Source: Candidatus Nomurabacteria bacterium (GTDB lineage Bacteria; Patescibacteriota; Minisyncoccia; Phycocordibacterales; UBA9973). From it: a stretch of DNA of 56,254 nt. The stretch covers positions 1 to 56,254 of the forward strand of contig JAHFNO010000008.1 of NCBI GenBank assembly GCA_023267275.1, read 5' to 3'. The position numbers and the translations under genes were made by a program. Under the pieces are notes generated by a model, which did no database searches, was not told the origin of the DNA, and was given only the letters and a program-made list of their open reading frames with translations. Shown here piece by piece: positions 21,811 through 49,086 of this stretch (within the stretch, counting starts at the first letter, position 1; every line of letters begins with the position of its first letter).

Positions 21811-22947
21811 TTAAAACTTTGACCACTTGCCTCCACCCGGTGTGTTTACGATCGTGTTGTGCTTCGGGCGATTAATAAATTGATCATTCGAGGGTATATT
21901 TCCTTTCTGCATAAATTCAATGAAGGAATCAAATATCTCTTTGGCGTTATCCAAGTTGTCGAGACTCATGATCCCTTTCAAGTTTTTATTGAGTCTGGCT
22001 TTGTCTTGTTTCGGATTACCCACGGTGTTTTGGAAAAGATTCCATCGCTCTTTCAAATCGGTTCCCCACATCATTGTGTAAAACTGTGAGCTCTCAAGGT
22101 TTGAGTGGCCGAGAATGTTTGTAACATCTGCACTTGCCCCGCCTTCCTTGATGATCTTTCGTCCTCCGTAGTGACGAGCTGAGTGTGCATTGAAAATTGA
22201 GGGCAGTCTGGCACGGTTCGATATCATTCTAAAAACTTCGCACACAGACCGATTCGTCATGCGCTTACCGCTAACATCGTATATGCCACACTTTCTGATT
22301 GAAATAAATACTGCGTTGGGATCGTCGAATGTCATGAGTTTTTGTATCTCACTTTTCTTCTTCAGCCACGCTTTGAGATACTTGCCAGTTTTTGCCGTCC
22401 AGAATATCTCTCGGACCGGACGCTTACCTCTCGATTTCTCGGTTCGTATAAGTGCACAGCCAGATAGGTCTTTATTAAATTGGAGCTCGTCTTCGTCTAC
22501 TGATATTATTTCTCCAGTTCGTGCCCATGAATCCCACACCATATGTACCAAGGCTAGATTTCTGATGTTGTTCGGATTGTTATCGCGCGGAATCGCGCTC
22601 ACTAGTTTTTTGAAGTCTTCATCATTTGCCACGCGCGGGATATTAAATTCTTTCTTTTGAAGCGGAATGAGTGATTCGTTGATGCAGTTGTGTCCTCTTA
22701 AGTTATAAAACTCGAAGAATTTTCGCAAGGCAAGTGCGACAATGTTTATGCCATTGCGCTTCCACCCGAGCCGTTCCATTTCTTTCATGTAGTGCAGTAT
22801 GTGGTGGATTTGAATCTGTTCGATATCTTGATCTCCCATGACAAGGCAAAAAATCCGCAGTGCGGAGTCATATCGAACGACCGTTTGGCCGGTTACTTTG
22901 AACCCTCTCCAATTTTTGAATTCTTCTATTGCTTGGCTTAATTTCAT
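21811..22947 (-). CDS. Phage integrase, tyrosine recombinase
   Basis: 378 residues. N-terminal SAM-like DNA-binding domain (about 1-100: IEEFKNWRGFKVTGQTVVRY and HILHYMKEMERLGW), then the catalytic domain with Arg in WDSWARTGEIISVDEDEL, Lys region LIRTEKSRGKRP, HSARHYGGRKII (His-x-x-Arg), LGHSNLESSQ and the Tyr nucleophile in QFYTMMWG. All catalytic residues are in place. It extends about 80 residues past the Tyr, longer than usual. It should insert and excise the prophage. Confidence 0.92.
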   Translation of the reverse strand: MKLSQAIEEFKNWRGFKVTGQTVVRYDSALRIFCLVMGDQDIEQIQIHHILHYMKEMERLGWKRNGINIVALALRKFFEFYNLRGHNCINESLIPLQKKEFNIPRVANDEDFKKLVSAIPRDNNPNNIRNLALVHMVWDSWARTGEIISVDEDELQFNKDLSGCALIRTEKSRGKRPVREIFWTAKTGKYLKAWLKKKSEIQKLMTFDDPNAVFISIRKCGIYDVSGKRMTNRSVCEVFRMISNRARLPSIFNAHSARHYGGRKIIKEGGASADVTNILGHSNLESSQFYTMMWGTDLKERWNLFQNTVGNPKQDKARLNKNLKGIMSLDNLDNAKEIFDSFIEFMQKGNIPSNDQFINRPKHNTIVNTPGGGKWSKF

Positions 22948-25529: not shown

Positions 25530-26465
25530 TTATTTCCAATCGAACCCTCTACCAAAATGCCCCCACGTGCAAGTATCTTTGAATTTTACCTGATCAAGTT
25601 TCAGGTACTCCCGCAATCCGCGAGGACTTAGATCGTAGCCGGTGATTTCTTGCTCCTTTCCATCAATGATTGCTACTGCCATCACTGGCTCGTTCTTCCC
25701 TATCGCATATGCGAGCTTTGTTTGAACTTCTTTCGCTGCGTGTTTTTCCAAGAGCTCGACAGCAATTCTTCGAGCCATGTATGCACCCGATCGATCGACT
25801 TTCGTATAATCCTTGCCTGAGAAAGAACCGCCGCCGATCGTAATCTCGGGACCGTAATTGTCTACAATCAACTTGCGACCAGAGAGTCCAGTGTCTGCAT
25901 CAAAACCTCCCTGTGTCCATTCACCTGCGGGATTAATGAGATATTCTTCAGCAGGAATTATTTCCTGCACAAACTTTAAGAGCTCATCGTTTTTTGTATT
26001 CTGAAAACTCGCCACCACTGTGATAACTTTCTCGCCATCGATTGTTACTTGGGTTTTTCCGTCGTAGGGATACTTCTCGAAAATCTTCTTGCAAAGCATT
26101 CGGGCAAGCTGATATTCAAGTGGCATGAAGTTTGGAGTTTCTGCTGTTGCATATCCCTTCATGATTCCTTGGTCGCCAGCACCGCCGGTATCCACGCCGC
26201 GAGCTATCTCGGGGCTTTGTAGGGCAATGTGCGTTATAACCTCGAAATCTGCCCCTACGATGGCTTTTACAATCTGTTCTACCTCGGGCTTTGCTCTGCT
26301 TGTTACCTCGCCGTTTATCGTGACAAGGTTATGCCCACCCATAACTTCGATCGCCACACGGCTCTCTGGATCGCCCTCTAAATAGGCATCGAGAATGCTA
26401 TCGGCGATGTAGTCACATATTTTGTCCGGATGTTTCGGACTCACAAACTCACTTGTTTTTCTCAT
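25530..26465 (-). CDS. metK: S-adenosylmethionine synthetase, compact form
   Basis: 311 residues against about 380-400 in most bacteria. Both signatures are present: SPKHPDKICDYIADSILDAYL, GAGDQGIMKGYAT, and GGGSFSGKDYTKVDRSGAYMARRIA with TGLSGRKLIVDNYG. The middle domain is shortened around VVASFQNTKNDELLKFVQ. It makes SAM from methionine and ATP. It lies behind a SAM riboswitch and next to a defence operon with two methyltransferases, both of which consume SAM. Confidence 0.92.
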   Translation of the reverse strand: MRKTSEFVSPKHPDKICDYIADSILDAYLEGDPESRVAIEVMGGHNLVTINGEVTSRAKPEVEQIVKAIVGADFEVITHIALQSPEIARGVDTGGAGDQGIMKGYATAETPNFMPLEYQLARMLCKKIFEKYPYDGKTQVTIDGEKVITVVASFQNTKNDELLKFVQEIIPAEEYLINPAGEWTQGGFDADTGLSGRKLIVDNYGPEITIGGGSFSGKDYTKVDRSGAYMARRIAVELLEKHAAKEVQTKLAYAIGKNEPVMAVAIIDGKEQEITGYDLSPRGLREYLKLDQVKFKDTCTWGHFGRGFDWK

Positions 26466-26475
26466 GGTTGTAAAT

Positions 26476-26624
26476 AAAAAATCCTCATAAAGAGGAAAGA
26501 TCGAGGACTAATCGTATCTTTCCGTGACGGCACTTTCGCATCGTCTTGGCTGGATGTGGCACCTTCTTATTTCTAAGGGTTGCCGGTGGGTCGTTGAGCC
26601 AGTCTCTCGCCACTCTCTTGATAA
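26476..26624 (-). promoter_or_regulatory. SAM-I (S-box) riboswitch controlling metK
   Basis: Minus strand shows TTATCAAGAGAG at the 5' end, GACTGGCTCAACGACCCACC, the GGCAACC core and AAGGTGCCACATCC, all landmarks of the S-box. Downstream, GGAAAGAT/ATCTTTCC can pair as an alternative stem, and TCCTC-TTTAT-GAGGA followed by T6 (26476-26496) is a terminator just before the metK ATG. High SAM should stop transcription. Confidence 0.9.
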
Positions 26625-26689
26625 CAAACTATTTTATTGTAAATGGATTATACCAAAATTATAAAAGATCAGCTAGCTCATTCATAAAT

Positions 26690-28345
26690 TTATGGTGTCA
26701 TTTTTGTTGATCTGTCTAACCGATAAAAAAGATGTGATAAGAGACTTAAAGCATCGAGACAATCTTTCTCAGTAAAAAGCCCAGAGTCTTTGAGGTCTGA
26801 CACGACCTCGTGTGCAACAACATTTCTTCCTCCTACAACTATTCCGTGAGAAAATTCTCGGTGGGCATTTTTTATGTTTTTTATCGTGTCTGGATCAAAG
26901 TCTGTTCCATCAGCTCTTTTGAAATTCTCCGTCACTGACAGGACTGGTGTCGCGAGTTGAAAAACATTTTCCATCATTGGAGCCGCATCTGCGATTGTTG
27001 ATCCTGATTTGTTTTTTACCGCGTTTATGTATACCTTGGCCGTTTCCAAAAAAGCAGTGTAGTAGTTTCCGTCTTCGTAGTATTGTTTTGAAGCTGTTTG
27101 AACCTCTGGATGCATATATCTCCAATGATAAAAAGCGTATTCTGGAATCAGTCCATGGATTTTTTTAACGGCACCACCCATTGCTTCAACTGGAAGTTCC
27201 GAATCTCTTTCCAAACTTTGAATAAGAGGCTTCACTTGATCTCTAATTTCAGGTGGTAATTTACTAAACCATTCAGGAATGTTAACTCCTGTAGATTCTG
27301 AGAGTTGACCTTCTCGCTTTGCTGCTCTTTTGTCGCGCCAGTCTTTTTCAAGCCATCGAATCATGCTCTGTAAATAGGCCCGCAGTTCGGCCATCTCTGG
27401 ATGATCCCAAATTAAGGATTGCCGATTAGTTTCAATTACATCTTCTGGAAGGTCGTCGATAAAATCAACCTCGAGCCAACCTGTTAGGTACGAAAAGAAG
27501 TGGCTCGATTGGCTATCAGAAAAATACTCGGCCTGATTCACCAATTTATTTCTCGAAAAAAGAACAATGCCACGCATGTTTGTTTTTGGAGAAATCGGCT
27601 TTTCAGTTGCAATAAGGTGTCCGACAACCTGAGCTTTGCGTGAGTATTCACTTTCTATGCCAATATCTACCGGCACATCCCACTCGATTTCTTTGTCGAG
27701 ATCAGCGTACTTGCGTTCGTTCGTTACTTCAATTGGAGCACTCGAATTGTGTTGTAGCGTGATTTTGAAACTAGTATCAATAATAAATATTTTTGAGAGA
27801 CTCGTAGCTATGTCTTCAGGTAAAAAATCTGAATCCCTCTGAAGTCGTCTTAGAGTGATTATTGTTCCATGTTCTCTGGGACCGCAGGGTTCATCTTTCT
27901 TCACAATCACGGGTGTATACTCCTTGTCGGCTCCTTTGATATCTTCCCATCGCATTATGAAAACATTCAACATGCCGTCCTTCTTTGTGGCGATTTCAAT
28001 CTCGTGTGATATTCCAAAAAAAGAAAGCTTTCCTAGACCTTTCTTACCTATAGCCTTTCGTCCTTTTACTGAAGCGTGATCACCATCATCGTCTCGACGA
28101 TTTCTGCCGATTCTTAAAAACTTATCATTGATGTCATCGAAACTCATTCCAACTCCGTCATCCTCTATTATGATTTCTTTGTCGGCAGTATTGTCTTTAA
28201 GATTTAATTTAATATTCTCGGCATCAGCATCATAAGAGTTTGCGATGAGCTCGGCTAACACGGGAGGAAGAGTTGAATACATGCGGACACCTAAGTGCTC
28301 GATGGTATTGGGATCAAATGTCATTTTTAGTTTGGCAGTAGGCAT
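26690..28345 (-). CDS. GHKL (MORC/Hsp90-like) ATPase with C-terminal Ymh-like domain
   Basis: 551 residues. The Bergerat ATP fold is complete: N box ELIANSYDAD (32-41), G1 box DDGVGM (62-67), and G2 region KAIGKKGLGKLSFFG. The last 120 residues (YYEDGNYYTAFLETAKVYI, GRNVVAHE) resemble the TIGR02391/Ymh domain found in defence proteins. Such ATPases often accompany C5 methyltransferases in restriction-type islands, as here, 15 bp after the 28361 gene. The exact mechanism is not known. Confidence 0.8.
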   Translation of the reverse strand: MPTAKLKMTFDPNTIEHLGVRMYSTLPPVLAELIANSYDADAENIKLNLKDNTADKEIIIEDDGVGMSFDDINDKFLRIGRNRRDDDGDHASVKGRKAIGKKGLGKLSFFGISHEIEIATKKDGMLNVFIMRWEDIKGADKEYTPVIVKKDEPCGPREHGTIITLRRLQRDSDFLPEDIATSLSKIFIIDTSFKITLQHNSSAPIEVTNERKYADLDKEIEWDVPVDIGIESEYSRKAQVVGHLIATEKPISPKTNMRGIVLFSRNKLVNQAEYFSDSQSSHFFSYLTGWLEVDFIDDLPEDVIETNRQSLIWDHPEMAELRAYLQSMIRWLEKDWRDKRAAKREGQLSESTGVNIPEWFSKLPPEIRDQVKPLIQSLERDSELPVEAMGGAVKKIHGLIPEYAFYHWRYMHPEVQTASKQYYEDGNYYTAFLETAKVYINAVKNKSGSTIADAAPMMENVFQLATPVLSVTENFKRADGTDFDPDTIKNIKNAHREFSHGIVVGGRNVVAHEVVSDLKDSGLFTEKDCLDALSLLSHLFYRLDRSTKMTP

Positions 28346-28360
28346 ATATGATATCTGTTT

Positions 28361-29416
28361 CTATTTACTCTCTAACGACCTGACTATTTGATCTCCCAGA
28401 ATCTTTCCGAACGCGGGAGGAACAGCATTGCCGATCATCTTCGATATTGAAGCGACGCTGTTTCCTATGAATTCGTAGTCCTTCGGAAAAGTCTGGATAG
28501 TGGCACCCTCTCGAATCGAGATGGCTCTGTTTTCTTCTGGATGTGCAAAGCGGCCATTGCTTATGCTGTAAAATTTGGTAGTGATTGTTGGGGCCGGACG
28601 ATCCCACCACATTCTGCCGTATGTGTCGTAGAACTTCTTTTCGCCCGAAGAATAGCATTCGAGTTTATATTTCTTTTTATTCTGCCAACCAGAACGATCT
28701 CCTCCATTCGCCGGCGTCATTTGCAATCTCTCAATATTCTTTTGGTTTAAATTTGCAGCACTATGTAAAAACTTACTAGAATCTTTTGTTCCTGCTTTTA
28801 TTTTTGAAAATCCATTTTTGGGGCCCAGAATATCCTTAAGAGTTTTTTGTTTGTTTGTTGGCTCAGGGAGAGAGATGTTTGACACTCTGGAAGCAAGCAA
28901 GGTGAACCTCTTTCTTTTCTGAGGAATTCCATACTGTGACATGTCCGTAACATGATGAGCAACTTTATATCCAAGTGATTCTAAAGTGCTTATAAATTTA
29001 CCCATTGGACTTCCCTCTTTTGAAGATATCCCGGGGACATTTTCTACAAGAACAAAGCCCGGATTAAAGTATTCGACAAATCTTTGAAAATCAAGTATTA
29101 AATCTTTAGTTTTTTTCGACTTTTCTCGGCTTGTGTGTATGATGCTCCAAAATTGGCACGGAGCACATCCCGCAAAAATCATGTTATTATCGTTTCTTTT
29201 TATTTTTAAATCCTTTTCGAGTTCTAGAGGAGAGTATTTCGTTACATCTCTTTCAAGGTATATTGATCCTTTGTTGTTTTTTTCATATGTCTCCTTACAA
29301 GACGCTTCAATGTCGACACCCGCAAGAACATTAATACCTGCCGATCTAAGACCGTGCGTGAGCCCCCCTGCACCAGAAAAGAAATCGATGGCTTTTAATG
29401 TGTTTTTTTTAATCAT
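28361..29416 (-). CDS. DNA (cytosine-5) methyltransferase
   Basis: 351 residues. Motif I DFFSGAGGLTHGL, motif IV with catalytic Cys in GCAPCQFWS (Cys 87), motif VI VLVENVPG, motif VIII QKRKRFTLLAS, motif IX IREGATIQTFP and motif X IGNAVPPAFGK are all present. It overlaps the upstream HinP1I-like endonuclease gene by 8 bp. A target cannot be read, but it is unlike the HhaI-type enzyme next door and probably has another site, perhaps linked to the GHKL ATPase. Confidence 0.92.
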   Translation of the reverse strand: MIKKNTLKAIDFFSGAGGLTHGLRSAGINVLAGVDIEASCKETYEKNNKGSIYLERDVTKYSPLELEKDLKIKRNDNNMIFAGCAPCQFWSIIHTSREKSKKTKDLILDFQRFVEYFNPGFVLVENVPGISSKEGSPMGKFISTLESLGYKVAHHVTDMSQYGIPQKRKRFTLLASRVSNISLPEPTNKQKTLKDILGPKNGFSKIKAGTKDSSKFLHSAANLNQKNIERLQMTPANGGDRSGWQNKKKYKLECYSSGEKKFYDTYGRMWWDRPAPTITTKFYSISNGRFAHPEENRAISIREGATIQTFPKDYEFIGNSVASISKMIGNAVPPAFGKILGDQIVRSLESK

Positions 29417-30197
29417 GGTTTTTTTCTTTGGTTGGAATTTTTACTATTTCACAAGGATCAATTTTAAATTGAAGCATAGCAGCAGAAGGACGTCCGTTAT
29501 CTCCACCCTTTCTTTGCATACCGATTCGACCGATTTTGAGACTACCATCTCTGGTGATTCTTACTGGACCGTTTCCATAAAAATTCATAACCATTGCCAT
29601 TGGAAGCAAAGTCCACACGCTTATATTTTTTTGGTATAAAAGAAGCCAAGATGCAGGGAAACTATCGCGGCCTTTAAATAAATCCGCAACGATTAATATT
29701 TTGTTTTTCTCAAAAAAATCGATAATTTCCGCTTGCTCTTTTGAGGTTAGCTCATCTAGGAAAATCCTTCTTGAATCTTCTGGACTTGGTTTTGGAGGAG
29801 TCAATTCGCCAGTAAAATATTTTAATTGTTTTCCTATTCTCTCTGGTATACCCCAAAGCTCCACATATTTATCTATCCACCTCTTGTCTATTTGATTGAA
29901 TCCAGAATTGTTGCTTACGAGTTTTATTGAAATATTTTCTATACCAGTTCCTTTTTTGAAAAAAATTGTGATCTCCACCTGAACATCTGTTTTGAAATTA
30001 CCTGTTATTTTAACAGCCTTCACGTTTTCGATGTCTTTCATTTGATAGCCCATGACATCCAACCATTTTTGTGCGTCTTCGTCGCTTTTCCATGCGTTGA
30101 ATTTATCAACGACATCCTGTTCATTTTTAAATCCGCCTTTGGCTGTGGCGGAACCTCTTGCGATGAGCTCTTTTAGTTTTAAATTTGTGTCATCCAT
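29409..30197 (-). CDS. Type II restriction endonuclease, HinP1I-like (predicted GCGC)
   Basis: 262 residues. From my knowledge of R.HinP1I, many segments agree in order: TAKGGFKNEQDVVDKF, AQKWLDVMGY, VKAVKITG, KLVSNNSGFNQIDKRW, YFTGELTPP, MQRKGGDNGR and AMLQFKIDPCEIV. HinP1I cuts G^CGC. The PD-(D/E)XK-type site would be Asp 71 and Lys 92 (SIK); the residue two before the Lys is Ser, not Glu or Gln, so activity should be tested. The adjacent gene is an HhaI/HinP1I-type methyltransferase. Confidence 0.85.
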   Translation of the reverse strand: MDDTNLKLKELIARGSATAKGGFKNEQDVVDKFNAWKSDEDAQKWLDVMGYQMKDIENVKAVKITGNFKTDVQVEITIFFKKGTGIENISIKLVSNNSGFNQIDKRWIDKYVELWGIPERIGKQLKYFTGELTPPKPSPEDSRRIFLDELTSKEQAEIIDFFEKNKILIVADLFKGRDSFPASWLLLYQKNISVWTLLPMAMVMNFYGNGPVRITRDGSLKIGRIGMQRKGGDNGRPSAAMLQFKIDPCEIVKIPTKEKNHD

Positions 30198-30203
30198 ATA
30201 AAA

Positions 30204-31232
30204 TTAAGTTGTTAATGTTAAGTCGGGATACGCTTTTATAATCTGTTGAAATATTAATTTCAATACAGGTACGGATACGCTATCGCCAAACTGTTTGTAT
30301 GCTTCATTTCTATTTTCTGCTATTTCATAGTCTTCTGGGAAGCCTTGCATGCGGGCACATTCTCTCGGAGTCAGCTTTCTGACTTTACCGTTAATCAAAT
30401 ATGCTCCTGTTTTGCTTGCTGCACCGCCTCCATAGGCCGACAACGTTATACCGGCGGCTTTTGTTGAGTATATCCTCTCTCCTTGTCCACCCCCATTTAT
30501 CTTGCCTATCTGCAAAGGACGACGAGGGTCTACTACTTCCGCATCAGGCTTCGTTATTTTCATGTCTGGTCTGTCGATAAAACCATGAAAGATGTTATCT
30601 TGCTCAAGAATATCTTCAACAGTTTTAAACTCCTTGATTGGTTTTGGAAATTCAAAATTCTTTATTCCAAGGTCTTTCCTGAAGGCAACGATATAGACTC
30701 TTTCTCTCGCCTGAGGAACTCCGTAATCGCTTGATCTCAAAACTTTTATAAAGTGATCATATCCGATTTCTTCAAGTGTGTCTTTGACCACTTGGATTGT
30801 TTTTCCATTATCGTGTTTTAAGAAATTTCTTACGTTCTCCAAAAAAAGAACTTCTGGTTTTGCTTTTTTTGCGATTCTTGCAACATCAAAAAATAAAGTG
30901 CCTCTAGTATCACCGAAACCTTTCATTTTCCCTGAAATACTGAAGGCTTGGCAAGGAAAACCTGCACACAAAACGTTGTGCTTAGGAACTTCTTTTTCGT
31001 CTATTTTTGTAATGTCTCCTTCTGGGCACTCACCGAAGTTTCTTTCGTAAGTATCTTGAGACTTTTCGTCCCATTCTGATCCAAAGACACACTCCCCTCC
31101 ATGACTTTCTAGAGCAATGCGAAATCCTCCAATGCCAGCAAACAAATCAATGAAATCAAAAGTCTGTTGGGTTTTTTCCCAACTTTTCTTTTTGTTTACC
31201 TTTTGAGTTTGAAATAGTGTTGCGACTGGCAT
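30204..31232 (-). CDS. DNA (cytosine-5) methyltransferase, M.HhaI/M.HinP1I type (predicted GCGC)
   Basis: 342 residues, close to M.HhaI along the whole length: FIDLFAGIGGFRIALES (motif I), EGDITKIDEKEVPKHNVLCAGFPCQAFSISGK (motif IV, Cys 94), LFLENVRNFL (VI), QARERVYIVAF (VIII), the recognition segment KINGGGQGERIYSTKAAGITLSAYGGG, then LTPRECARMQGFP (IX) and FGDSVSVPVL (X). The recognition part is especially like HhaI, which methylates the first C of GCGC. It protects host DNA from the endonuclease 6 bp downstream. Confidence 0.92.
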   Translation of the reverse strand: MPVATLFQTQKVNKKKSWEKTQQTFDFIDLFAGIGGFRIALESHGGECVFGSEWDEKSQDTYERNFGECPEGDITKIDEKEVPKHNVLCAGFPCQAFSISGKMKGFGDTRGTLFFDVARIAKKAKPEVLFLENVRNFLKHDNGKTIQVVKDTLEEIGYDHFIKVLRSSDYGVPQARERVYIVAFRKDLGIKNFEFPKPIKEFKTVEDILEQDNIFHGFIDRPDMKITKPDAEVVDPRRPLQIGKINGGGQGERIYSTKAAGITLSAYGGGAASKTGAYLINGKVRKLTPRECARMQGFPEDYEIAENRNEAYKQFGDSVSVPVLKLIFQQIIKAYPDLTLTT

Positions 31233-31234
31233 AT

Positions 31235-31513
31235 TTATATTCTAATTACTAAATTAATTCCCGACAATTTTATTATTAATATTTTTCCTTCCAATTTCTT
31301 ACTCGTTTGTTGACCTATAAATATTCTTCCAGATAAATCTATTTTTCGATCCTTTAGTGTAATGTGACCGATTCTTACTGAAAATTTTTCACCAAGTTTT
31401 TTTCTTGCCTCCTTATCCATGGTCACAAACAAATAGCCTCGACTGACTTCACTCTTAGTGAGTGTCCTTTTGATACCGTCGTTAAGTCTTCTGAGTCCTT
31501 GCAGTGCGGCCAT
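31235..31513 (-). CDS. Small basic protein heading the restriction operon, unknown
   Basis: 92 residues from ATG 31513, with 2 bp to the methyltransferase gene. Lys/Arg-rich N-terminus (ALQGLRRLNDGIKRTLTKSE), then beta-rich segments (GYLFVTMDKEAR, FSVRIGHITLKDRKIDLSGRIFIG). The start is chosen because a promoter would begin the mRNA about 2 nt upstream; the longer ORF to 31603 covers that promoter. It may regulate the operon, but it is not a typical HTH C-protein. Confidence 0.5.
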   Translation of the reverse strand: MAALQGLRRLNDGIKRTLTKSEVSRGYLFVTMDKEARKKLGEKFSVRIGHITLKDRKIDLSGRIFIGQQTSKKLEGKILIIKLSGINLVIRI

Positions 31514-31521
31514 ACAAATAC

Positions 31522-31550
31522 ATTTTACAAACTTTGCGCTAGAATAGCAA
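31522..31550 (-). promoter_or_regulatory. Promoter of the restriction-modification operon
   Basis: TTGCTA (31545-31550), 17-bp spacer, TAAAAT (31522-31527) on the minus strand. The spacer holds a GCGC site, the predicted target of the encoded methyltransferase. Confidence 0.55.
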
Positions 31551-31610
31551 CTAACAATAAGAAGCACCATTAATGTGCCGTTGAGTCTACACTTGTCAGA
31601 CAATTAGATA

Positions 31611-43931: not shown

Positions 43932-46118
43932 TTATTCGATCGAGATATCTTCAGGCTGTGTGTAGCATCGACAGCTCACATGAAGCGGAGGACTCCCGAC
44001 GCTGTCATACGTGATTGGTAATGTCGACCCACCAGTTCCCGTTACTTCGTCGCCTTTATCAAAAAAGTCATCTTCAATATCGATCGTTTTTCCGTCCATG
44101 CTATCGCACCATTCGCACACGCTGTCATCTTCGGCGGTGTACCACTTAATGCTTTTAACAACACCAGATTGTTTCCATGCTTCTTTGGTTGAATCGTTTG
44201 CAATACGGAATACTTCGGTGCGAGCGACTTGCCCCGCACGCACTTCGTTGCTGTAGTCGTACACGGCATTGATCTTGTCGGTCAGCTCGGGCAGTGACAT
44301 TCCCTCTGATAGACCTTGATCAAGCGTGTCTTTCAAAAGTCCGAGGGTTGTTTCGTTGTAGCTGTCCGCCATAAGTTCGATGGAATGATCAAGCGACTGT
44401 CTTACTTCTGGTGTCATGCGAAAGTTATCAAAGCCGACCAATGATCCGGCTTGTTTGGCTTCTTCTTGATATAGCTCTCGCATGATCGGACTTGAAAAAT
44501 CAATCATAATTCCAAGCCATTCTTGTTTGTTGAAAATGTCGGATGTTGAAACTGCTTTATAACTCTTGAGCTTTTGAATGTTCTTGATTACTTCTTTTCT
44601 TTGGTCATCATTGAAGGTTCGCACACGATCAGCGTGGAGCTTTTCGTAGGGACCAACTCGGATCGCAAATGCTTTATAAAAAATGGCGTATTCTTCGTGC
44701 GATAGCTCGGTTATATCTTTCACTTTCTTTGTCTTCAGTTCTTCAAGTTTTTTATTTTGAACATCAAGTGACTCGGTCAATCGCTTTGCTATTTCTTCCG
44801 AGATGCCCTTTCGTGCCTTGTGATTCTTTGCGAATCGAGTGGATGGTTTCTTTTCAGGTTCAGTATTTTTCTTGCTGAATCTTTTTGCGACTTTTGGTTT
44901 AGGTGCACCAAGTGGAACCTTCGAGAAATCAGTCATTACGCTATCGCCTTTATCGACACCATCAAGACCGAAGTATTCCTCTCGGGCTTCGTTGATTGAC
45001 ATGACTGGTTGCTGTCCAGTCGCTGCTTTCATTTCTTCTATGCGTTGTGCGCGGTCTTCAGGAACAGGATCGCTAAAGTCGAGGTACAAATTTTCGCCAA
45101 AGCGAGGCACAAGAAATTCGTTCAGCTGTTGCACTATCAATTCCATTTTTGGTTTGATGGTTCGAGCGGCAAAGACATAGTTTGCTGTTTCGGCAGTGGC
45201 ACGGTTTGTTTCTGATTCAGAGCTTCCAAGAATTGTTTTTGGCACACGGAACCCGCTCAGAATTTTGTCTCGCATTACTGCCTGCATGTTGGCGAAATCC
45301 ATGTCTTTCGGTGTACTGCTTGCCTCGTCATATTTCACACCTTTTGGAAGGACAGCTACTCGGTACGCATTGCCTGCACCTTTGTATAGATTTTCAAACG
45401 ATGCACGCAGAACTTTCATTTGTGCATCGGTGATTGCCGTCTCTGAAGAAAGCACACCGCCGAGACGAGCACCGTTTCTGAAGTAATTTAGATTTACGTC
45501 ATTGGCGAAGTTGTCTGTTTGAATCCAGTCCATGATTGCCTGCACTGTTCCGATGCCTTGGTATGGATCGTTTGGATCGGGGTATTTGAAATGCAAAATC
45601 TCATACGGCTTGAACGTCTGTGTTTCTCCGTTGATTGAATACTTGTAGCCTTTTATAAACTCCGGTAACTTGGCAGGAATCGGTGATGTGTATTTTGGAC
45701 TAAGTAAAAAGATTGCTTTTGGTATGTCAGTTTCGCTTTTAACTCCATCGAGAAGCCAGTAAGTATTACCAGTGAGTTCAAGGTGTGATGCTGTTAGATA
45801 TTTTAAATCGTAGCCGGTTTGATATGGATTTACTCCTTCGAGCAAATCAAGAATTTCGTGGTCAAATATTTCTTCGTGAACTCCGTCTTTGTTTACTTGA
45901 AAAAGTCGGAAGCGTTGCTTTGCAATTTCTTCAGCGATTGAGCGGACGCATGCATACACCCATCCGTTATATGTGGTCATTGCTTTGTCGATACCCACCT
46001 TTCTTGATTGCGACCACAAGAGAAATGGATCGACATCTGCGACGGCCGAAGCAAGCGCCAGTGTTGCCGCTTTTCTTACGAGACCGATTGTGTTTAATGC
46101 TTTATCAAAAATATTCAT
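43932..46118 (-). CDS. Portal protein fused to a MuF-like domain
   Basis: 728 residues from ATG 46118. The first 400 are the HK97-like portal (YNGWVYACVRSIAEEIAKQRFRLF, HEILDLLEGVNPYQTGYDLKYLTASHLELTGNTYWLL, IGTVQAIMDWIQTDNFANDVNLNYFRNGARLGGVLSS). After a Lys-rich linker, residues 500-728 hold a MuF-like domain: ARTEVFRIANDSTKEAWKQSGVVKSIKWYTAEDDSVCEWCDSMDGK and PPLHVSCRCYTQP. In most phages these are separate genes. The fused protein would place the MuF part inside the capsid at the vertex. Confidence 0.88.
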   Translation of the reverse strand: MNIFDKALNTIGLVRKAATLALASAVADVDPFLLWSQSRKVGIDKAMTTYNGWVYACVRSIAEEIAKQRFRLFQVNKDGVHEEIFDHEILDLLEGVNPYQTGYDLKYLTASHLELTGNTYWLLDGVKSETDIPKAIFLLSPKYTSPIPAKLPEFIKGYKYSINGETQTFKPYEILHFKYPDPNDPYQGIGTVQAIMDWIQTDNFANDVNLNYFRNGARLGGVLSSETAITDAQMKVLRASFENLYKGAGNAYRVAVLPKGVKYDEASSTPKDMDFANMQAVMRDKILSGFRVPKTILGSSESETNRATAETANYVFAARTIKPKMELIVQQLNEFLVPRFGENLYLDFSDPVPEDRAQRIEEMKAATGQQPVMSINEAREEYFGLDGVDKGDSVMTDFSKVPLGAPKPKVAKRFSKKNTEPEKKPSTRFAKNHKARKGISEEIAKRLTESLDVQNKKLEELKTKKVKDITELSHEEYAIFYKAFAIRVGPYEKLHADRVRTFNDDQRKEVIKNIQKLKSYKAVSTSDIFNKQEWLGIMIDFSSPIMRELYQEEAKQAGSLVGFDNFRMTPEVRQSLDHSIELMADSYNETTLGLLKDTLDQGLSEGMSLPELTDKINAVYDYSNEVRAGQVARTEVFRIANDSTKEAWKQSGVVKSIKWYTAEDDSVCEWCDSMDGKTIDIEDDFFDKGDEVTGTGGSTLPITYDSVGSPPLHVSCRCYTQPEDISIE

Positions 46119-46240
46119 AAATTTGCAACAAAAAAAGGGATTGCAACGCAAGCCCATCTCCAGTAGAGACGAAATCGCGTTACAAGCCCTCTTGTGTATC
46201 AAGTCAGACTGTACGAACCAAATTAAAAATGTACTCTTAT

Positions 46241-46268
46241 ATTATACCGGCTTACTTTTTTAATACAA
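46241..46268 (-). promoter_or_regulatory. Candidate promoter for the head/tail operon
   Basis: Minus-strand TTGTAT (46263-46268), 16-bp spacer, TATAAT (46241-46246), overlapping the end of the reverse transcriptase gene and about 115 bp before the portal ATG. The leader contains an imperfect stem ttgcaacgc/gcgttacaa. Confidence 0.55.
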
Positions 46269-47240
46269 GGCAATCCCTACCCGCTTTTGCACTTTGTAAG
46301 TGTTGCCGTGACCAAGCAAACCTCTATATGAGCTTATTGTTTCGGGCTTCGGATATCCCTTTAGTTTTCTGATTAATTTCCGCTTTGTCGTAGTCCTGAT
46401 CTTTCGGTGATGCGGGAAATGGACCCAACCAAGGAAATCCACACCCGAACCATATGTTTTGATATATACCTTGTGAGGATGAAGTTTCAGTTTTAACCTT
46501 TCGTTCAGAAAATCATCAATCTTTGGAAGTAAATCTTCTAGATATTTTTTATTATCTGACAAAATAGCGAAGTCGTCTGCGTAACGAATATAATGTTTGA
46601 CCCGGAGTCCTTGCTTCATGTACATGTCAAACTCGTGCATGTAGATATTCACGAGAAGTTGAGACGTTAAATTTCCCAATGGCAACCCAACACCTTCTTG
46701 TTCCGTATGAAAACTTTTCACCACTTGGTTTATGAGCCAGAGTATTTCTTCGTCTTGGATATGTCTCTTCAGGATGGAACGCAAAATATCATGATCCACA
46801 CTCGCAAAGAATTTTCTTATATCGCATTTCAAAATGTAGCATGTACGCGTGTTATTTTTTGATACCCTGTCGGCAAAAACTTTGAAACGCTCAAATGCTC
46901 GGTGCGTTCCTTTGTGCTTCCTGCATGAGTAAGAATCAAAAATAAAACGTGAATCAAAATACCAATACAATTCTTTATAAATCAGATGGTGAAGAACCCT
47001 GTCTCGAACGATCGCCTTGTGAATGTTTCTCGGTTTGGGATCGGAAATATTAAAAGCTGAATACCCAGAATGTTCGTACGTTCTGTCTTTGAGCATGACG
47101 TAAAGTTCAATGAGATTATCCGACAGTTGGACTTCGAATTTCATAACGTCCTTCTTTTGCCTTTTCCCACAGATAAAATGATTCCATGTGGAGAGGATAT
47201 TTTCTATCGATATGATATTGTTATATTTATGAGTGAACAT
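46260..47240 (-). CDS. DGR reverse transcriptase
   Basis: 326 residues from ATG 47240. The palm motifs are complete: CDIRKFFASVD (139-149), GVGLPLGNLTSQLLVNIYMHEFD (the LGNLTSQ form is typical of DGR enzymes), YADDFAIL (220-227), and LKLHPHKVYI, VDFLGWVHFP for the last strands. The N-terminus SIENILSTWNHFICGKRQKKDVMKFE matches DGR and group II-like RTs. It has no maturase or endonuclease domain. It copies the TR RNA with errors at adenines. A longer ORF to 47426 is rejected because it runs deep into avd on the other strand. Confidence 0.95.
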   Translation of the reverse strand: MFTHKYNNIISIENILSTWNHFICGKRQKKDVMKFEVQLSDNLIELYVMLKDRTYEHSGYSAFNISDPKPRNIHKAIVRDRVLHHLIYKELYWYFDSRFIFDSYSCRKHKGTHRAFERFKVFADRVSKNNTRTCYILKCDIRKFFASVDHDILRSILKRHIQDEEILWLINQVVKSFHTEQEGVGLPLGNLTSQLLVNIYMHEFDMYMKQGLRVKHYIRYADDFAILSDNKKYLEDLLPKIDDFLNERLKLKLHPHKVYIKTYGSGVDFLGWVHFPHHRKIRTTTKRKLIRKLKGYPKPETISSYRGLLGHGNTYKVQKRVGIALY

Positions 47241-47627
47241 AAGGAAACTACTAAACCTGCCATGACGCAAACCCCTCTCGTTTTGGTGAGAACCAAAGAA
47301 GCATACCGCACTTGGCACGACGCACTGGTTAAAGTGAATCGAGTCGATCGCTATACGATCGGTGCTCGAATCGATGAAACCTTCCTTTCCTTGCTTGAGA
47401 CTATTTTCAGAGCTACTTTCGCCCACGATAAATTTGAGAAGCTTTCTCTTGTTTCTGAGGCTTTAGGTAAAAACGATCTTCTGAAATTCTTTCTTCAGAT
47501 TGGCTGGGAACAAAAAGCTATTGATCATACTGTATACGGTGCACTGATTCTTAATCTCGACGAGGTTGGAAGGATGCTCGGCGGATGGAAGAAAAATCTG
47601 CAAGAAAAAACTCCCACCAACAAATAA
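47229..47627 (+). CDS. avd: Avd-like DGR accessory protein
   Basis: 132 residues forming a four-helix bundle. The C-terminal phrase LNLDEVGRMLGGWKK is the Avd hallmark (EVGRILGSW in the Bordetella phage protein); FLSLLETIFRATFAHDKFEKLSLVSEALGKNDLLKFFLQIGWE gives the basic middle helices. Avd forms a barrel pentamer that binds the reverse transcriptase and TR RNA. Its ATG overlaps the RT start by 12 bp on the opposite strand, an unusual orientation. An alternative ATG lies at 47262. Confidence 0.88.
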   Translation: MSEHKETTKPAMTQTPLVLVRTKEAYRTWHDALVKVNRVDRYTIGARIDETFLSLLETIFRATFAHDKFEKLSLVSEALGKNDLLKFFLQIGWEQKAIDHTVYGALILNLDEVGRMLGGWKKNLQEKTPTNK

Positions 47628-47638
47628 TGTGGTGGGAG
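47605..47638 (-). terminator. Hairpin after the template repeat
   Basis: 8-bp stem ctcccacc/ggtgggag with a 12-nt loop (47611-47638), followed on the minus strand by T6 (47605-47610). It would end a leftward TR transcript 14 nt after the TR. Its loop holds the avd stop codon on the other strand. Confidence 0.6.
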
Positions 47639-47651
47639 AAAAAAATGAGTA

Positions 47652-47770
47652 GCAGAAGCACAACAGGCAGTTGTCGTCATTCCAGTCATTCTCGAAGTAA
47701 CCGAGGTTGAACTTCCAGTCACCGTCCGAGTTGCGGTTCACGTTCGGCACCCTGTGGTTGCCGTCAGCGT
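47652..47770 (-). repeat. DGR template repeat (TR)
   Basis: 119 bp matching the VR at 48116-48234 with 8 substitutions. On the coding (minus) strand the TR has A at every one of the 8 positions. Translated in the VR frame it is rich in AAC (Asn) codons, as in known DGR templates. It lies inside an open frame but not in a supported gene. Confidence 0.97.
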
Positions 47771-48035
47771 ACGCACAAGCAATGTACGAGAGATCATCCA
47801 TTCCACCACGCTCAGCACCAGCCAAGCGTTGTATTTCATTCGGAGTTTTTAAACTCTCCAATATCTCGCACCGACTTATTTTTGTTTTTTCATAAAAGGA
47901 GGCACTCATCCGGAAGCCGTGACCGCCGAACCACTCGCCAAACCCTTATACGAGATTTCGACTCCGCGAAGCCTTGACCGCACGATAATATCTACTTTCT
48001 GGATATCAGTATATCGGATATTCAAAATAAAAAAA

Positions 48036-48059
48036 GAGCCTTTGCTTTCGCAAAGGCTC
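48036..48059 (-). terminator. DGR-type hairpin, also a terminator of the target gene
   Basis: Perfect 10-bp stem gagcctttgc/gcaaaggctc with loop GAAA on the minus strand, 57 bp past the VR end, followed by T7. In the Bordetella phage DGR a similar stem with a GAAA-type loop just past the VR is needed for homing; here it also has terminator form. Confidence 0.85.
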
Positions 48060-48106
48060 CAAGGGTCAAAGACCCAATTGATACTAAGTGACCAAGCGAC
48101 CAAGGA

Positions 48107-48772
48107 CTACTTGTCGCAGAAGCACAACAGGCAGTGGCCGTCATCCCAGTCATTCTCGAAGCAACCGAGGCTGAACTTCCAGTCACCGTCCGAGTAGCGG
48201 TCCACGCTCGGCACCCTGTGGTTGCCGTCAGCGTCTTCCCAGAGAGCGTCCTTCTCATCGAAGGAAACAGTCCATTTGGACACTGGGAACTGGTCCGCCT
48301 TGCTGTCCTGCAACAACGTGATGCCCTGTCCGCCGACGAGGATGGCCCCCTGCTTCTTCAGGAAGGTCATGCAGTCTCCGCTCGTTACTGTTGCCAGTAT
48401 CGGGAAGATTCGCACGCGGTAGGTTTTGCCCGGCTCGAGTTTGTTCGTCGCTTTCGCGAAGTTCTCGCTCGAGAGGTCATCGTTGAAGTAGTAGGTGGTC
48501 TTCAGCTTCTTGGTCTTCTTGGCGAAGGTGTCGAGCTGGGTGTCGTGCTTGTAGTCTGCCGGCACCGTAAACTCGAAGTCCTTCATCGCGGGACCGAAGC
48601 GCTGATCCACCATGGCGAGCTTCTGCAGGATGGGCTTCATTTGCTCTTGCAACGTGCCACCTGCTTTAATGATTTCCTGAGCCTCATCTTTCGAGAAGCC
48701 CAACGCACGAACCGCGTCTCTTACGAGATCGGCAATGCGATTTTCTTGGTTTGACGTGATCTTTTCAGTCAT
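48107..48772 (-). CDS. DGR variable target protein
   Basis: 221 residues from ATG 48772, with a ribosome site AAGGAA 7 nt before it. The N-terminal 60 residues are helical (NRIADLVRDAVRALGFSKDEAQEIIKAGG), the middle is beta-rich (YYFNDDLSSENFAKATNKLEPGKTYRVRIFPILATVTSGDCMTFL), and the C-terminal 40 (DGNHRVPSVDRYSDGDWKFS, then LGCFENDW) are encoded by the VR. Layout fits a variable C-type-lectin-like end. No signal peptide or membrane segment is present. The gene is richer in GC (about 55% in sampled lines) than its flanks, a sign of separate origin. The binding partner is unknown. Confidence 0.9.
   Translation of the reverse strand: MTEKITSNQENRIADLVRDAVRALGFSKDEAQEIIKAGGTLQEQMKPILQKLAMVDQRFGPAMKDFEFTVPADYKHDTQLDTFAKKTKKLKTTYYFNDDLSSENFAKATNKLEPGKTYRVRIFPILATVTSGDCMTFLKKQGAILVGGQGITLLQDSKADQFPVSKWTVSFDEKDALWEDADGNHRVPSVDRYSDGDWKFSLGCFENDWDDGHCLLCFCDK
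48116..48234 (-). repeat. DGR variable repeat (VR)
   Basis: Encodes residues 180-219 of the target. Relative to the TR, the codon changes are N189S, N191D, N193Y, N201S, Y204C, N210D, D212G and N213H, each a single change at a TR adenine. The last 20 bp before the stop are identical in both copies, as expected for the IMH end. Confidence 0.97.
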
Positions 48773-48842
48773 CGTATTTCCTTTTTTGAATGTACAATCC
48801 AGAATCTGCTGGAACAGTTGCAAGGATACTTGCTATGGGAAC

Positions 48843-48871
48843 ATTATAGCAAAAACAACACTATTTGTCAA
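48843..48871 (-). promoter_or_regulatory. Perfect-consensus promoter of DGR target gene
   Basis: Minus-strand TTGACA (48866-48871), exactly 17-bp spacer, TATAAT (48843-48848). The best promoter in the window; the mRNA would start near 48836, 64 nt before the ATG. Confidence 0.85.
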
Positions 48872-48891: not shown

Positions 48892-49086
48892 TTATAAAGG
48901 GAAAGCAGTGAATTCGTCGGTTTCTTCCCCTTTTCTTTTTATTCTATATTCCGTAAGAATAACCTTTTGGTCTTGGATTTTTATTATAATTTCTCCGAAC
49001 TTAATTTGAGACGCCAAAGTCATGATCTCATCCCATTCAGAGGTAACTTCTCTCACAACTCTCGGTTTTTGTTTTTGTTGGTTCAT
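48892..49086 (-). CDS. Small protein resembling DUF2292
   Basis: 64 residues; ATGA overlap with the terminase stop. MTLASQIKFGEIIIKIQDQKVILTEYRIKRK looks like the short DUF2292 strand pattern (lkfGsi.Iviqdgrvv.ie..ekir). Function unknown; likely part of the terminase operon by coupling. Confidence 0.55.
   Translation of the reverse strand: MNQQKQKPRVVREVTSEWDEIMTLASQIKFGEIIIKIQDQKVILTEYRIKRKGEETDEFTAFPL

Follow-up and report, generated by a model that had tools for sequence, protein, structure and literature searches.

An intact diversity-generating retroelement of Patescibacteria chromosomal type inserted in a Paceibacteria prophage, probably as cargo

Gene content and repeats of the retroelement

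Diversity-generating retroelements (DGRs) are already known in phages and in Patescibacteria, the candidate phyla radiation (CPR). We analyzed a 56,254-nt stretch of the Candidatus Nomurabacteria contig JAHFNO010000008.1 (hereafter, the window), which carries a DGR inside a prophage. All positions are those of the forward strand of the window, and the coding side of the DGR is the minus strand. The source genome comprises 1.02 Mb in 33 contigs and is estimated to be 100% complete. The DGR consists of the following features.

46260-47144, minus strand: DGR reverse transcriptase (RT) gene (RVT_1, 3e-24; PHROG 1423, 2e-92; motifs PLGNLTSQ and YADD)
47232-47627, plus strand: Avd gene, antisense to the RT gene, the template repeat, and the target gene (Pfam bAvd, 1.3e-10, over the cut-off; PHROG 3206 Avd, 9e-16)
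47611-47638, no strand: bidirectional terminator between the template repeat and Avd (inverted repeat, flanked on either side by a T-run, within a few nt past the template repeat)
47652-47770, minus strand: template repeat (TR), 119 nt, compared base by base with the variable repeat
47784-47985, minus strand: structured template-RNA leader, recognized by covariation (P1, 47964-47985; P2 with a nested hairpin, 47896-47947; P3, a long helix, 47784-47871)
48001-48013, minus strand: -10 box (TATACT) of a putative template-RNA promoter (TATAMT in the same place in most aligned loci)
48036-48060, minus strand: intrinsic terminator of the target gene (11-bp stem, GAAA loop, then a T-run)
48107-48772, minus strand: target (variable) protein gene, 221 aa, an open frame stopping just past the variable repeat
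48116-48234, minus strand: variable repeat (VR), 119 nt, with 8 differences from the TR, every one at a TR adenine
48843-48871, minus strand: target-gene promoter (TTGACA-17-TATAAT with extended -10; 12/12 consensus matches), forming the upstream edge of the cassette

The TR and VR differ at 8 of 119 positions. Read on the minus (coding) strand, each of the eight is an A in the TR; the VR has G at six of them, T at one, and C at one. No non-adenine mismatch was present across the 119 nt. With 29 adenines in the TR, the hypergeometric probability that all eight mismatches fall on adenines is 5.5e-6. An initial annotation of this DNA had reported 119-bp copies with eight differences confined to TR adenines, at a chance of about 5 in a million by hand count; our recount was exact, and the calculated probability matches that estimate. 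The TR and the VR each occur at one place only, and no further VR for this TR was found elsewhere in the genome.

The same bias was apparent among 49 related loci, whose TR/VR pairs were found by a local scoring scheme: 861 of 889 mismatches fell on TR adenines, with a TR base composition of 27% A. G was the commonest substitution overall and strongly so at AC. The TR of locus L130 differs from that of the window at 2 of 119 nt, and the two VRs differ at 18 positions, 16 of them TR adenines. The near identity of the templates beside the divergence of the VRs indicates that the template was kept while the target was rewritten.

A profile search of the RT against solved structures gave 8ub7_A as the best match (E-value, 1.2e-35), with group II intron RTs next (9e-19). 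In this profile search, 8ub7 preceded the group II RTs by ~17 orders of magnitude in E-value, and the RT was nearer to 8ub7 than to group II or defence RTs. We take 8ub7 to be the DGR RT of phage BPP-1. The YMDD motif in the printed alignment, which also shows GSLTSQ, and the SMAA-inactivated BPP-1 RT in PMC12875486 both fit this assignment. The Avd protein scored 2.9e-14 against NCBIfam DivGenRetAVD, below the family cut-off, and contains EVGRMLGGW near its C-terminus.

Judged from its sequence, the locus is a real, complete DGR, because the RT, Avd, and the C-terminal VR in the target gene are all intact. It combines mismatches at TR adenines, an RT with GxxTSQ and YxDD, an Avd, and a VR at the C-terminal end of the target. 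The initial annotation was right in calling the element complete and in assigning LGNLTSQ and YADD to the RT. It also recognized an Avd-like protein with EVGRMLGGW but described the protein as ending there, whereas 14 more residues follow.

One component of that description had to be reassigned. A hairpin flanking the initiation of mutagenic homing (IMH) site is a feature of BPP-1-type systems and is not known to be a requirement for every DGR. The GAAA-loop hairpin past the VR had been listed as part of the element. The hairpin exists, but no conserved IMH-flanking hairpin of the BPP-1 kind was found downstream of the VR at this locus. Post-VR hairpins of relatives have loops such as ATAAAA, TAAT, CTTT, TTTT, and GAAA, among others, on differing stems, usually followed by a T-run. 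Because a T-run follows the GAAA hairpin and the loop varies among relatives, it reads as an ordinary intrinsic terminator. As a homing element it was ruled out, since neither loop nor stem is conserved and a T-run follows.

Insertion of the cassette into the prophage

The nearest named relatives of the target gene belong to Candidatus Nomurabacteria and other Paceibacteria, in agreement with the CPR host proposed initially. Up to 20.4 kb, the contig is occupied by host genes, among them prfA, transketolase, and rpiB (read from translations). Two features define the setting of the DGR beyond this point.

21811-22947, minus strand: prophage tyrosine integrase (PHROG integrase, 5e-19; 79% identity with its counterpart in the related viral contig L112)
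46260-48880, minus strand: inserted cassette of ~2.6 kb, between a small open reading frame (ORF; 48892-49083) and the leader and gene of the portal protein (portal, 43932-46121)

Behind the integrase come phage genes (tail, capsid, protease, portal, terminase, methyltransferase, and replication) that have IMG/VR relatives. The presence of an integrase together with head, portal, terminase, and tail genes, all joined to the host chromosome, bears out the prophage setting given in the initial annotation. In L112 the integrase adjoins early genes; in the window it adjoins the host, with the early genes at the contig end. From this order relative to L112, integration appears to have occurred between the integrase and the early genes.

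The insertion site is empty in relatives of the prophage. In ten close IMG/VR phages (TerL, 70-92% identical; portal, 52-84% identical), TerL, a 64-aa gene, and portal are contiguous without a DGR; the junction alignment covered five of the ten. The same site is also empty in the chromosomal prophages L142 and L143. The cassette in the window extends from the target-gene promoter upstream to the RT stop codon downstream, the latter directly abutting the phage portal leader. Its complete DNA is 70-79% identical to cassettes in L130, L031, L033, L131, and L134, all of which sit among ordinary chromosomal genes. Homologues of the target protein (54-86%) were likewise found in Nomurabacteria and Paceibacteria chromosomes, the promoter and 5' untranslated region of the target gene are common to the chromosomal copies, and no target protein relatives were found in IMG/VR. 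Single-sequence viral scans with the RT and the target protein gave no matches. Since the site is empty in relatives and the kin of the target and cassette are chromosomal, the phage copy appears to be a captured chromosomal DGR. Comparison of the occupied and empty sites shows that phages can acquire a DGR of chromosomal type in the form of a compact cassette. The initial annotation had omitted this insertion, as well as the conserved structured leader 5' of the TR described below.

Two other loci pair such a DGR with phage genes. The phage contig L186 (IMGVR_UViG_3300012942_000022) carries the same DGR type beside terminase-like, portal-like, and phage replication genes, and in L144 a DGR of this type lies beside a terminase. 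The prophage setting, initially put forward as novel, is therefore rare but not unique. At L102:7611-8150, a GNAT-/acetyltransferase-like gene fills the same gap between small ORF and portal, which accordingly seems to be cargo-accepting.

The target protein had no family match in Pfam, PHROG, or NCBIfam. Its AlphaFold model had a mean predicted local distance difference test (pLDDT) score of 76, and because the top-ranked PDB fold matches were nearly all C-type lectins but the best single E-value was 0.19, a C-type lectin fold is likely, though not proved. Inspection of the sequence by eye revealed no obvious signal peptide. Target-gene copies without an RT or TR adjoin rpiB (L132, L133, L141) or prfA (L139, L140); the prophage in the window likewise adjoins rpiB.

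Structured leader RNA before the template repeat

The conserved stretch between the target-gene terminator and the TR opens with the TATAMT box, and no clear -35 element was found before the leader in the aligned loci. The ~240 nt that precede the TR form an RNA fold with strong covariation. RNAalifold analysis of 23 loci yielded 44 consensus pairs, 39 of them with compensatory changes. A covariance model of the TR-proximal half of the leader (R1, the P3 part) gave 22 matches, in DGR loci, when applied to 37 sources outside those used in building it. These matches were aligned to the R1 structure, which favours that structure somewhat; on them, 94.4% of P3 cells were paired and 147 cells were doubly changed, as compared with 43 after shuffling and no more than 46 with a slid partner strand. 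For P1 and P2, the doubly changed cells numbered 135 versus 46 shuffled, on the sequences from which these helices were derived. The shuffles ignore kinship; the slid controls retain it and score far below the observed values. The leader matched no Rfam family.

We scanned genomes with R1 at a threshold of E <= 1e-4, the E-values of this model being rough. R1 matched 99 of the 297 genomes scanned for the order and 50 of the 287 scanned for the phylum. Of the 64 matches in the phylum scan, 54 precede a same-strand RT of DGR type by 553-691 nt (typically ~640 nt). P3 stops 13 nt short of the TR. Since the TR is followed by no more than a few bases and a hairpin, the leader is the likely recruiter of RT and Avd in this system. 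A long-range pairing (P4) between the leader segment that immediately precedes P3 and the bases immediately past the TR is suggestive: self-pairing beat permuted partners (z -5.9; P 0.005 on the collapsed set), and a post-VR control was also mildly positive (z -2.3).

The conserved stretch could in principle be a protein-coding gene rather than an RNA, given that a frame (ORF 47463-47909) is open through the TR in the window and that L130 is similar in frame. However, 39 of the 44 pairs carry compensatory changes, the alignment has many gaps of odd length, and the ORF has no family match. On these grounds we rejected the TR-spanning ORF as a gene; the coding explanation is extremely improbable.

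Gene order among related loci and template cassettes lacking an RT

Gene order was tallied in those related loci in which a TR/VR pair was present and BLAST detected an Avd. The order target, VR, TR, antisense Avd, and RT is common to 42 of 42 such loci, usually with 475-560 nt between TR and RT, and a hairpin equivalent to the one after the TR occurs in most relatives. One of these loci is another complete DGR, the second of the source genome (G000 C22; L009:6241-8771), which has the same order, 19 of 19 mismatches at adenines, and a chromosomal setting. The layout had been called novel in the initial annotation, a claim that this uniformity contradicts.

Ten R1 matches in the phylum lie outside the 54 near an RT, and examination of these revealed three with a TR/VR pair: L221, L222, and L223 (G549:C4, G480:C4, and G587:C22). 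Their mismatches are adenine-only (17/17, 27/27, and 21/21, respectively). No RT or Avd was found by BLAST within ~6 kb of them, and their genomes carry such an RT elsewhere. These cassettes are possible satellites that would use an RT encoded elsewhere in the genome, and the presence of the leader in three RT-less TR/VR cassettes suggests that it may mark the template for an RT supplied in trans.

Several further observations were made in these genomes. Locus L041:7249-12311 contains two RTs, 32% and 61% identical to the RT of the window, and a second TR/VR pair with 24 of 25 mismatches at A. The genome of the window encodes a third, distant RT (703-aa frame; G000 C1:22728-23216, L003), and at L009:4642-4798 a tandem array of an 8-bp unit (TAGAACAA/TAGAACAC) lies between two chromosomal genes. 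Within the prophage span of the window, 26690-31603 contains two cytosine methyltransferases and neighbours resembling a restriction-modification cluster. Between the methyltransferase cluster and the integrase, 25530-26627 contains an S-adenosylmethionine (SAM) riboswitch and a metK-like gene; a relative of this metK (55%) occurs among phage genes in L143, and the window copy may be phage-carried.

Proposed mechanism and alternative explanations

We consider it probable that the locus is an intact, chromosomal-type DGR of Patescibacteria that was inserted into a Paceibacteria prophage, diversifies its target by mutagenic retrohoming, and is carried as cargo. Mutagenic retrohoming is the most likely mode of action of the cassette itself. 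The cassette would be expressed as four short units, namely, the target gene up to its terminator, the leader and TR up to the terminator shared with the convergent avd, and the diverging avd and RT genes. The dedicated promoter would give rise to a short RNA consisting of the structured 5' leader and the TR, within the boundaries predicted here. RT and Avd would bind this template RNA through the leader, P3 would be the likely end point of complementary DNA (cDNA) synthesis, and the suggestive P4 pairing may set up priming. Copying of the TR with errors at adenines would then yield cDNA that takes the place of the VR at the target-gene end and so alters the binding face of a C-type-lectin-like protein. 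Being cargo under a promoter of its own, the target protein probably acts in the lysogen (lysogenic conversion) rather than as a tail adhesin.

The main rival to this cargo role is a virion role of the target protein, in which the DGR would be the tropism-switching system of the phage itself and diversify a receptor-binding virion protein, as in BPP-1. The DGR does lie in the head module, adjoining TerL and portal, its target resembles a C-type lectin, and the phage contig L186 has the same DGR type with two VRs. However, the DGR is missing from all ten close phages, it lies outside the tail module, and the target gene has its own promoter; moreover, several kin of the target are chromosomal, some without an RT beside them, and none was found in IMG/VR. 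Tropism switching therefore appears unlikely. We regard as slightly less likely a decayed relic, that is, a former DGR now inactive as cargo. In favour of a relic, the VR is closer to the TR here than in most relatives (8 of the 29 TR adenines differ, and most other related loci have 9-27 differences against the 8 found here), but a low count is equally compatible with recent homing. The RT is intact, catalytic YADD included, as are Avd, the TR, the leader, the promoter, and the terminators, and the two repeats have come to differ at no position other than TR adenines.

An assembly artifact, in which a chromosomal DGR was misjoined into a phage contig, is very improbable. The contig derives from a metagenome-assembled genome that contains a second DGR; against this, the sequences flanking the cassette come from one and the same phage and keep its expected order (TerL and the small ORF to one side, the portal leader to the other), and the TR and VR were found nowhere else in the genome. 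Returning to the captured-cargo explanation, the following points weigh against it. The fold matches of the target protein are each individually non-significant, and the function of the leader is deduced from conservation alone. The contig ends at 56254 inside the phage early region, so that the integrase end alone is present and the second attachment site is absent from the contig. No convincing target-site duplication or terminal repeats were found at the cassette ends, and no transposase was seen.

A broader proposal, which we hold to be evenly balanced, is that Patescibacteria possess a class of DGR in which a separate leader-TR transcript recruits RT and Avd in trans through P1-P2-P3, the reverse of the 3' spacer arrangement of BPP-1, and in which the leader-TR, with or without an RT, is the mobile unit that appears as RT-less satellites and as prophage cargo. 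Patescibacteria retain DGRs despite their tiny genomes, and a phylum-wide covarying RNA outside Rfam provides a testable candidate recognition element for template choice. The leader makes RT-independent detection of DGRs possible, as in the case of the three RT-less TR/VR cassettes, and predicts which RNA to supply when such a DGR is rebuilt. The empty-site evidence, in turn, bears on how DGRs spread.

Comparison with known systems

A partial literature search found no description of antisense Avd as a general layout, of a leader RNA 5' of the TR, or of satellite cassettes without an RT, and the 5' leader RNA does look new. The DGR of the window resembles that of BPP-1 in its GxxTSQ RT, its Avd, adenine-only changes relative to the TR, and a target gene whose 3' end holds the VR. 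The substitution spectrum of the Patescibacteria-type loci is also consistent with that of the BPP-1 RT, for which a G preference at AC has been reported (PMC12875486). In BPP-1, however, RT and Avd are recruited by a structured spacer on the 3' side of the TR, between it and brt, and the avd gene precedes the TR (PMC12875486); in the window, the structured RNA is on the 5' side, the terminator follows the TR almost directly, and avd is antisense between the TR and RT. BPP-1 diversifies a tail protein, whereas the target here is encoded outside the tail module.

Roux et al. (2021; PMC8144416) describe DGR clade 2 as restricted to Patescibacteria and almost entirely cellular, and their main text makes no mention of Avd, RNA structure, or prophages. 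Our loci are similar to that clade in belonging to Patescibacteria, in having a target without recognizable domains, and in being mostly chromosomal, a likeness resting on phylum and context, and the window copy differs from the clade as described there in lying inside a prophage (PMC8144416). The DGR of L186 is closer in its components, with an RT 56% identical to that of the window, an antisense Avd, a leader RNA scoring 65 bits, and VR mismatches at adenines (15/16 and 21/21); it differs in lying before the terminase genes, in having two VR-like copies, and in its target proteins.

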